From: Coriobacteriia bacterium
Lineage (GTDB): Bacteria > Actinomycetota > Coriobacteriia > WRKU01 > WQUG01
Assembly: GCA_009781115.1 (NCBI GenBank)
Contig: WQYT01000013.1
Span: forward strand, 1-33,766
Reading direction: 5' to 3'
Length of the DNA stretch: 33,766 nt
The position numbers were made by a program, and so were the translations under genes. Every line of letters begins with the position of its first letter. Positions within the stretch are counted from its first letter, which is position 1. This document shows, piece by piece, positions 15,634-17,733 of the stretch. Below the pieces are notes generated by a model. The model did not search any database and was not told the origin of the DNA. It was given only the letters and a program-made list of their open reading frames with translations.

Positions 15634-16122
15634 CTACTGCATGCCACTGCTCCCAAAACCTGCCGCGCCGCGCTCGGTCTCATCAAGTTCTGCGACTTCG
15701 CAGACCGTAAGCGCCGGCACGGGAAGAATCACCAACTGGGCGATCCGGTCGCCCACTTCAATGCTGAGGGGTGTCTCCGGGTCAAGATTTATGGCGATCG
15801 CCTGGAGCTCGCCGCGATAACCGCTGTCAATCAGGCCGGGAGTATTGGGAAACGAGAGGCCCAGGCGCAGCGCGTTGCCACTGCGCGGCATGACAAAGCC
15901 CGCAAACCCTGCGGGGATGGCGACCTGCACGCCGGTGGGGATCAGCTTGCGCTGCAGCGGACGCAGGGTGCAGGCCTGCGCCGCGCAAAGGTCAAGGCCC
16001 GCGTCGCCCGGGCGGGCCTGTCGCGGCAGCTGCGCATGCGGGCGGCAGCGCCTGACTTGCAGCACCAGGGGCTCGCTTTTACCTGAAGGATCAAACACTA
16101 CGGGGTCTTGACGGTCGCTCAT
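15634..16122 (-). CDS. dut: dUTP diphosphatase (trimeric dUTPase)
   Basis: The protein has 162 residues. It cleaves dUTP to dUMP, lowering uracil misincorporation and feeding dTMP synthesis. All five motifs of the trimeric family are seen in order: PGDAGLDLCA, PRSGNALRLG, NTPGLIDSGYRGE with the catalytic Asp/Tyr, GDRIAQLVI and RGAAGFGSSG. The start codon directly abuts the nrdR stop, so the two are translationally coupled. The pairing of a ribonucleotide reductase repressor with dUTPase makes sense for deoxynucleotide control. Confidence 0.95.
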   Translation of the reverse strand: MSDRQDPVVFDPSGKSEPLVLQVRRCRPHAQLPRQARPGDAGLDLCAAQACTLRPLQRKLIPTGVQVAIPAGFAGFVMPRSGNALRLGLSFPNTPGLIDSGYRGELQAIAINLDPETPLSIEVGDRIAQLVILPVPALTVCEVAELDETERGAAGFGSSGMQ

Positions 16123-16566
16123 CTAAAGCTCCCCGAGCTCACGGGTAAATTCATCAAGATTCTGGAAGTCTTTGTAGACCGAAGCAAAGCGGATATAGGC
16201 GACACCGTCAAGCTCTTTCAAGCGCCGGAGCACCATGTCGCCGAGCACAGCTGAACTTACTTCATACTTCATGGAGTTCTGGAGGTTGGTAATGATGTCA
16301 GTAATAAGTGCGTCGATCGCGCCTGCACCGATCGGTCGCTTGACGACTGCGGTCATGATACCACGCCGCAATTTATTGAAGTCAAAAGGTTCTGCAGAAC
16401 CATCACGCTTTGTCACCAGAAGAGGGCGTTCCTCGATTCTTTCGTAGGTGGTAAAACGCGTGCAACACTGCAGGCATTCACGGCGTCTTCTTATCGCATC
16501 CTGAGAATCTGAAGTCCTCGAATCGATAACTTTGCTTTCGGCATAGCCACAGGCCGGACAATTCAT
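16123..16566 (-). CDS. nrdR: Transcriptional repressor NrdR of ribonucleotide reductase genes
   Basis: The protein has 147 residues, the usual NrdR length. An N-terminal zinc ribbon (CPACG and CLQCCTRF) is followed by the ATP-cone domain beginning ERPLLVTKRDGSAEPFDFNKL. NrdR binds ATP/dATP and represses nrd operons when dATP is high. Start ATG 16566 has GGGGA upstream. It leads an operon with dut and probably the purine permease. No nrd gene is in the window, so its targets lie elsewhere. Confidence 0.96.
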   Translation of the reverse strand: MNCPACGYAESKVIDSRTSDSQDAIRRRRECLQCCTRFTTYERIEERPLLVTKRDGSAEPFDFNKLRRGIMTAVVKRPIGAGAIDALITDIITNLQNSMKYEVSSAVLGDMVLRRLKELDGVAYIRFASVYKDFQNLDEFTRELGEL

Positions 16567-16604: not shown

Positions 16605-16633
16605 ACTATAACTGGTATGAATTATCAAGTCAA
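16605..16633 (-). promoter_or_regulatory. Promoter of the nrdR-dut operon
   Basis: On the minus strand TTGACT (16633-16628), a 17-base spacer and TATAGT (16610-16605) form a near-consensus sigma-70-type promoter. Just downstream TAGTGG and CCACTA (near 16583 and 16604) form an inverted repeat with a 15-base gap, a possible regulator site. Confidence 0.7.
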
Positions 16634-16781: not shown

Positions 16782-16895
16782 TTACAGCGGCATGAACAAC
16801 AGCGCGATCACGACCGCGCAGGCAATGATGCCCGAGAAGGCGTAGAGCGGGCGCTCGTAGAAAGTATCGGCAACTCCGGCTATAAGACGTGACAT
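16782..16895 (-). CDS. 37-residue single-pass membrane protein, divergent from lexA (candidate SOS-induced small protein)
   Basis: The gene is short. ATG 16895 follows AAAGGAG with ideal spacing, and the frame ends with TAA at 16782. The protein starts MSRLIAGVADTFYERPLY, then has one hydrophobic helix (about residues 18-36, rich in Ala, Ile, Val and Leu) and ends FMPL. It is transcribed away from lexA, and a consensus promoter with a nearby LexA-type box precedes it. Position and form recall small SOS-induced division inhibitors: YneA beside lexA in Bacillus and the 29-residue SidA in Caulobacter. There is no LysM domain, so it is not YneA itself. The division-block role is inferred. Confidence 0.7.
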   Translation of the reverse strand: MSRLIAGVADTFYERPLYAFSGIIACAVVIALLFMPL

Positions 16896-16955
16896 GGGTG
16901 ACTCCTTTTCTCGCTGGTACGTTACCAGTATGGCTGCCGGTACTGACAAGACAGC

Positions 16956-16969
16956 CGCACGGGTGTTCG
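16956..16969. promoter_or_regulatory. LexA-type operator at the small-protein promoter
   Basis: CGCAC-GGGT-GTTCG (read on the minus strand CGAAC-ACCC-GTGCG) matches nine of ten positions of the Gram-positive SOS box CGAAC-N4-GTTCG. It lies just downstream of the -10 hexamer of the small membrane protein gene, at or next to the predicted start of transcription. Confidence 0.65.
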
Positions 16970-16976
16970 TATTCAT

Positions 16977-17005
16977 AGTATCGCGCACAGACGTCCGCCT
17001 GTCAA
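16977..17005 (-). promoter_or_regulatory. Promoter of the 37-residue membrane protein gene
   Basis: On the minus strand TTGACA (17005-17000), a 17-base spacer and GATACT (16982-16977) make a near-perfect sigma-70-type promoter, about 85 bases upstream of the start codon. Confidence 0.75.
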
Positions 17006-17014
17006 GAGTTTTTC

Positions 17015-17028
17015 CGTACATTTGTTTG
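17015..17028. promoter_or_regulatory. LexA-type operator at the lexA promoter
   Basis: CGTAC-ATTT-GTTTG matches the CGAAC-N4-GTTYG SOS box with one mismatch (T for A at position 3). It overlaps the lexA -35 hexamer. A second, weaker copy, CGGAC-GAAT-GTTTT, lies at 17036-17049 over the spacer and -10. Autoregulation of lexA is expected. Confidence 0.65.
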
Positions 17029-17054
17029 TTTTTTTCGGACGAATGTTTTATACT
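17026..17054 (+). promoter_or_regulatory. lexA promoter
   Basis: TTGTTT (17026-17031), 17 bases, and TATACT (17049-17054) lie 35 bases before the lexA start codon. Confidence 0.65.
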
Positions 17055-17088
17055 GGTATCAGCAAGCCAATTTCGAAGGAGCAGACTC

Positions 17089-17733
17089 ATGACTACTGAC
17101 CATTCTGACCTCACCCCCAAGCAAAAGATGATCTATGATTTTATCGTCAGCTACTACCAGCATGAAGGCATCTTTCCCAGCGTGCGCGAGATTGGGAGCG
17201 GGGTCGGGCTCAGCTCAACGGGCACGATTCAGACCCACATCAACAAGCTGATCGAAAAGGGCTACCTCCAGCGTGACAACGGCAAATCGCGCGTCTTCTC
17301 TCTTTTGCGCGAGGAGGCTTCCGTCTCTGATACCGCCTATGACCGCGGCGAGATCATTGATCTGCCTCTGATCGGGCGCGTGGCCGCCGGGACGCCCATC
17401 CTGGCTGAAGAGAACCGGGAGGAGACTCTCCCCCTGCCCGCCTCCCTGATCAAGGGCGGCGCTGACGGTAGTTTTCTTTTGCGAGTCCATGGTGAATCCA
17501 TGATCGACGCGGGTGTTCTTGACGGAGACCTGGTCATCGTGCGGGCGCAAAAGACTGCTCAGGCCGGAGACATGGTCGTAGCGCTCATCGATGGTGAGGC
17601 GACGGTTAAGTATTACTACCCAGAGGCAGACCGCATCCGCCTGCAACCAGCCAACGAAAGCTTCGATCCGATTTTCTCCCGCGAGGTCGAGATCGCCGGC
17701 GAAGTAATCGGCGTCCTGAGGATATTTCGCTAA
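17089..17733 (+). CDS. lexA: LexA repressor of the SOS response
   Basis: The protein has 214 residues. ATG 17089 has AAGGAG upstream; a longer in-frame start at 16894 would cross the promoter and operators and is rejected. The N-terminal winged helix (LTPKQKMIYDFIVSYY, PSVREIGSGVGLSSTGTIQT) binds SOS boxes. The C-terminal S24 peptidase domain has the self-cleavage site Ala100-Gly101 in GRVAAGTPI and the catalytic pair Ser137 (GESMID) and Lys174 (EATVKYYY). RecA filaments trigger cleavage after DNA damage. It is the only long rightward gene in the chromosomal part, and it diverges from the small membrane protein. Confidence 0.97.
   Translation: MTTDHSDLTPKQKMIYDFIVSYYQHEGIFPSVREIGSGVGLSSTGTIQTHINKLIEKGYLQRDNGKSRVFSLLREEASVSDTAYDRGEIIDLPLIGRVAAGTPILAEENREETLPLPASLIKGGADGSFLLRVHGESMIDAGVLDGDLVIVRAQKTAQAGDMVVALIDGEATVKYYYPEADRIRLQPANESFDPIFSREVEIAGEVIGVLRIFR

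Follow-up and report, generated by a model that had tools for sequence, protein, structure and literature searches.

Here we report a 37-codon gene, transcribed divergently from lexA in a genome of the class Coriobacteriia, whose product is a single-helix membrane protein lacking the LysM domain found in most proteins encoded at the same position across the class. The gene is conserved within its order, its protein is under purifying selection, and its promoter is overlaid by LexA boxes. We propose, with a probability of roughly two in three, that it encodes an SOS-induced single-pass membrane protein that acts through its helix alone as an inhibitor of the septal machinery, and that it descends in position from an inhibitor of the YneA/ChiZ type. 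The region studied, referred to as the window, is the 33,766-nt stretch at positions 1–33,766 of contig WQYT01000013.1 of assembly GCA_009781115.1.

A small membrane protein gene between lexA and nrdR

The small gene occupies positions 16,782 to 16,895 of the minus strand, including the stop codon, with an ATG at 16,893–16,895 and a TAA at 16,782–16,784, and encodes the 37-residue protein MSRLIAGVADTFYERPLYAFSGIIACAVVIALLFMPL. This protein contains one hydrophobic stretch, a purely hydrophobic helix without charged faces, and its N-terminus is predicted to lie on the cytoplasmic side. A ribosome binding site, AAGGAG (16,902–16,907, minus strand), precedes the ATG by about 7 nt, and GGAG is found before the start in all three members of the genus; both the frame and the ribosome site were thus recovered as the original prediction had described them. 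The 5' leader between LexA box A (described below) and the ribosome site carries an inverted repeat, CTGGTA-CGT-TACCAG (16,914–16,928), which is perfect in the window, retains its arms in one same-genus genome (G002) and is incomplete in the other (G003). At 114 nt, the frame exceeds the length limit of some gene callers.

Pfam and NCBIfam searches assigned no family to the small protein. DUF6203 was considered for a relative of the protein and set aside, being a weak match in that one relative (E 0.076) far under the cut-off. A longer in-frame reading, of 112 codons in the window, was also rejected: the open frame in G002 comprises just 47 codons, and the leader shows no conservation at the protein level.

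The divergent orientation with respect to lexA, with nrdR downstream, is likewise as proposed. LexA is encoded at 17,089–17,733 of the plus strand (TIGR00498, 208 bits against a cut-off of 111), and nrdR at 16,123–16,566 of the minus strand (TIGR00244, 178.5 bits, cut-off 124.65). The latter has a separate promoter, TTGACT-N17-TATAGT (16,605–16,633, minus strand), conserved within the genus. Next in the same direction is dut, encoding dUTPase (15,634–16,122, minus strand), which was recognized by eye from its GDAGLDL, PRSG, GLIDSGYRGE and GDRIAQL motifs.

Purifying selection and conservation within the order

The frame was compared between the window's genome (G000) and the two same-genus genomes, G002 and G003, both of which contain it, with protein identities of 95% and 81%, respectively. 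Between G000 and G002 we counted 24 nucleotide differences, 22 of them synonymous, so that only two residues change; random placement of the same 24 changes gave a mean of 14.1 residue changes, and none of 5000 simulations was as low as two. The same synonymous excess was observed in the pairs G000-G003 and G002-G003 and in a pair from a second genus (G008-G006), while a third pair, G011-G012, showed 0.79 synonymous versus 0.17 non-synonymous differences per site. Judged by this pattern of substitutions, which departs from chance, the frame is a real protein gene under strong purifying selection. The competing idea of a chance open reading frame, or of a regulatory leader whose peptide has no importance, would fit the shortness of the frame and its lack of a database family, but it is already contradicted by the overwhelmingly synonymous changes in the three pairs within the genus, in the second genus and in the third pair, as well as by the maintenance of start, frame and length across families, and we consider its chances negligible. 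A chance frame is excluded because the 24 differences alter just two residues against a null mean of 14.1, and likewise in G003 and the second genus.

One-helix proteins of 29–38 residues, hereafter mini-proteins, occupy the same slot beside lexA in 11 of the 14 genomes of the window's order, which forms one group in the LexA tree (support 89/96). The original prediction was to stand or fall in part with the conservation of the frame in relatives, and these 11 genomes bear it out. Examples include MRTLLKNSVKAFHDTPSVGFIEVILLIVALSIVIMPFV, MARFVKSIVKEATAQPPIGLIEISVIALAAVWLFSL and the 29-residue MKKLITDAPVQTTAELVAIVLMVAVLFIR, and the alignment of the mini-proteins shows that residues M1 and P16 are invariant and that the chain ends 0–3 residues past the helix. 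Another 29-residue member, MKKLIQETPVQTTAELLVIVLVLATLFIR from G011, was left out of the profile, yet was matched by it with an E value of 1.4e-6; at its locus lexA starts divergently alongside, and three strong boxes are present. Among the three genomes of the order without a mini-protein, G001 and G004 are incomplete assemblies without lexA, and G013 possesses lexA. At the G013 locus (L015), lexA adjoins nrdR directly, with LexA boxes present and no small gene between them; this member of the order has apparently lost the putative inhibitor.

LexA boxes over the small-gene promoter

The promoter TTGACA-N17-GATACT, described in the original prediction, is present on the minus strand at 16,977–17,005; it matches the consensus at 10 of 12 positions, and its -35 element is identical within the genus. 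Four LexA boxes were found in the intergenic region. Box A, CGAACACCCGTGCG (16,956–16,969, minus strand), matches at nine of ten positions, lies directly downstream of the -10 element and is conserved in G002 and G003. This is the single SOS box that had been noticed before; it is real, but box B and the two boxes on the lexA side had been overlooked. Box B, CGGACGTCTGTGCG (16,984–16,997, minus strand), lies in the spacer between the -35 and -10 elements, 28 bp from box A; it is degenerate in the window and nearly perfect in the same-genus relatives (CGAACGTTTGTACG in G002). On the lexA side, box C, CAAACAAATGTACG, occupies 17,015–17,028 of the minus strand, and box D, CGGACGAATGTTTT (17,036–17,049, plus strand), overlaps the -10 region of lexA, being weak in the window and a better match in G002 and G003. 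The box CGAACNNNTGTWCG, with one mismatch, also occurs upstream of this genome's recA, at a distance of 62 nt.

The layout with one box in the -35/-10 spacer and another straight after the -10 element is genus-wide, and its position over the promoter should block RNA polymerase. The 300-bp regions upstream of lexA at 112 loci of the class contain 306 boxes with at most one mismatch, compared with one in shuffled sequences, and the commonest spacing between the first two boxes of the divergent gene is 28 bp, at loci with and without LysM. Control of the small gene by LexA, as originally claimed, is strongly supported, as far as can be read from the DNA, by the boxes over its promoter and by the occurrence of the same box at recA. 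Elsewhere in the window's genome there are three identical copies of a LexA-like site, CGGACTTGTGTACG (G000:C1:66564, C14:20831 and C14:20935), two of which lie in inverted orientation about 100 bp from each other.

Occupants of the lexA-divergent slot across Coriobacteriia

We extracted lexA from 300 Coriobacteriia genomes and read 112 loci, in which LysM was assigned by motif and corrected by eye, with examples confirmed by Pfam and NCBIfam. At 63 of them the product of the divergent gene is about 105–210 residues long and has one helix and, after it, a LysM domain; at 43 the product has one helix and lacks LysM, and at the remaining six no candidate was called. Two examples of the helix-plus-LysM form scored 28.5 and 21.1 bits with the Pfam LysM model (cut-off 20.9), and 37.9 and 41 bits with the NCBIfam YneA model, below its cut-off of 60. 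The gene order lexA-X-nrdR is common to the window and to those relatives in which X is the helix-plus-LysM protein.

Direct searching with the YneA model gave matches in 105 of 150 genomes of the class and in none of the 14 genomes of the window's order. A search for LysM in the three genomes of the window's genus, not just in the small protein, found none, and a LysM/YneA gene relocated elsewhere in the genome was looked for and not found. With no LysM in the genus and no YneA match in the order, the domain is therefore missing and not moved.

On the tree, at least four changes between presence and absence of LysM are needed. The loss is recurrent, since the LysM-less proteins of G061 (77 residues) and G086 (98 residues) sit inside LysM groups. 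The LysM-less occupants at loci L054 (G260) and L060 (G061), of 46 and 77 residues, belong to unrelated families. Family f6 (L176–L211) consists of LysM-less proteins of 73–128 residues in the lexA-divergent slot, with the helix at the very C-terminus and a conserved N-terminal motif, G[ST]xALKP followed by IIxFP, which is shared with helix-plus-LysM proteins in f4 and f7 (GNLALKP, for example); we know of no described family for the f6 proteins. One f6 locus, L197 in G246, instead contains a 34-residue mini-protein, MENGKELFGFSRLEVLVCSVVSIAISFGPLLFLC, about 125 bp upstream of lexA; it carries a glutamate in the helix that the rest of f6 lacks, which points to a separate miniaturization or to transfer. 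A single-contig, 99% complete Coriobacteriia genome of 1.4 Mb (G163) gave no LexA match and may have lost the SOS switch. In the literature covered by our search, mainly open-access papers, we found none that deals with LexA boxes in Coriobacteriia or with inhibitors encoded divergently from lexA in this class.

Probable descent from the helix-plus-LysM form

The mini-proteins are most likely positional descendants of an SOS division inhibitor of the YneA/ChiZ type, reduced to its helix. Position, orientation, box layout, neighbours and topology argue for descent from the helix-plus-LysM gene, and the sequence itself offers no proof. Scored with a profile of LysM-type helices, the window protein did not exceed shuffled versions of itself (P 0.16); mini-proteins of the sister genera mostly reached P values of 0.01–0.09, and the G061 protein reached 0.001. 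Homology of the helices between the mini-proteins and the LysM forms is suggestive and not established, and because this comparison was mostly not significant, the case for common descent rests chiefly on position. By count on the alignment, 27 of 37 LysM forms of other families have a glutamate at the helix entry. Every mini-protein from the order's other genera has it too, and the window's genus has Ser/Thr-Gly instead. We infer that this glutamate corresponds to E6 of YneA, one of five residues required for toxicity and septal localization (PMC13396833).

Comparison with known SOS inhibitors

Like YneA of Bacillus subtilis (NF010723), the window protein is encoded divergently from lexA, under predicted LexA control, with a single helix and a putative N-in topology, and most of its relatives have the helix-entry glutamate; it differs in lacking LysM, in giving no match to NF010723 and in being about one third as long. 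Both LysM and a match to the model were looked for and are missing, which places the protein outside the YneA family as defined. The YneA helix binds TM7 of FtsW and suffices for septal localization, whereas YneA without LysM localizes without blocking division; the block on septal wall synthesis requires LysM (PMC13396833).

ChiZ (Rv2719c) of Mycobacterium tuberculosis is similarly SOS-induced and encoded beside lexA, in the same lexA-X-nrdR order as in the window, but it has LysM and a reported hydrolase activity. That LysM is dispensable in ChiZ was reported earlier, according to a review (PMC3989709). The original prediction of an actinobacterial counterpart holds for the YneA-like position and needs restating in other respects: ChiZ, with its LysM, was already known, the helix-plus-LysM form fills most slots of the class, and the window's form is LysM-less. 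SosA of Staphylococcus aureus and DivS of Corynebacterium glutamicum, SOS inhibitors encoded next to lexA, likewise have a single helix and lack LysM (PMC6851548), but their chains are longer, and the extracellular C-terminal part of SosA is important for activity, whereas the chain of the window protein ends almost at the helix. Caulobacter SidA, a tiny SOS-induced single-helix membrane protein, has 29 residues, as do the relatives from G011 and G012, and arrests division through FtsW (PMC4211646); it belongs to another phylum and has no known relation to the window protein.

Proposed function and alternative explanations

The precedents of YneA, ChiZ, SosA/DivS and SidA make a helix-only inhibitor the most likely function. 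LexA bound at the two boxes would keep the small gene silent; upon DNA damage, RecA and LexA self-cleavage would release it together with lexA. Once inserted, the protein would have a cytoplasmic N-terminus and a C-terminus at the outer face of the membrane. Its helix would dock on the machinery that builds the septal wall, with FtsW as the most likely partner, delaying division until repair is done. The proposed target exists, since the window's genome encodes SEDS/FtsW-type proteins. If so, the window protein would work like YneA, ChiZ, SosA or SidA. Several observations weigh against such an inhibitor: in B. subtilis, YneA deprived of LysM fails to block division; the window protein scores no higher than shuffles with the LysM-type helix profile; the window's genus has lost the helix glutamate; and G013 has lexA without a mini-protein.

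We rank this function above a different SOS role in the membrane, such as modulating a protease, a transporter or, with nrdR, ribonucleotide supply, or occupying FtsW without blocking it. The last of these is compatible with the isolated YneA transmembrane helix, which binds FtsW without arrest (PMC13396833), and the location of nrdR and dut downstream of the small gene would suit a link to nucleotides; such a role is nevertheless unlikely, given that nrdR has its own conserved promoter and that the small gene shares its locus and box layout with YneA-like proteins. Ranked after it, and also improbable, is a toxic role like that of TisB and DinQ, in which the SOS-induced peptide would depolarize or perturb the membrane and promote dormancy without binding the divisome. 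Against a toxin, the slot beside lexA is occupied by YneA-like proteins across the class examined here. In Escherichia coli, the tisB and dinQ genes are not beside lexA. TisB and DinQ resemble the window protein as LexA-controlled, single-helix small peptides, so its size, helix and control are compatible with a toxin; DinQ is a single-transmembrane SOS peptide (PMC3567139), and TisB is a membrane toxin of the SOS response (PMC11575346). They differ in being type I toxins with antisense RNAs, and no known antisense RNA family was found here by an Rfam scan, which gave no match and detects known RNA families, so that a novel RNA would escape it. The purely hydrophobic helix of the window protein, without charged faces, also speaks against a toxin.

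Implications for SOS division inhibitors

LysM-type actinobacterial counterparts of YneA, such as ChiZ, were already known; what is added here is a LysM-less, reduced occupant of the same slot in one order. It remains disputed which part of the SOS division inhibitors inhibits: LysM is essential in YneA and reported as dispensable in ChiZ, and SidA has little beyond its helix. The window's order presents a natural experiment on this question, in which, at the same locus and with the same LexA boxes, the LysM form has been replaced by a bare helix under strong selection. Since the YneA helix alone binds FtsW without blocking division, the mini-proteins are a natural test of whether a helix suffices. 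We tentatively suggest, at somewhat below even odds, that repeated LysM loss in Coriobacteriia has led to proteins of 29–38 residues in which the helix by itself still arrests septation, a convergence with Caulobacter SidA. The combination of conserved helices and paired LexA boxes divergent from lexA also offers a search route to genes too short for detection by homology. If the bare helix does arrest septation, LysM would be dispensable and the contact between helix and FtsW would be the inhibitory core.
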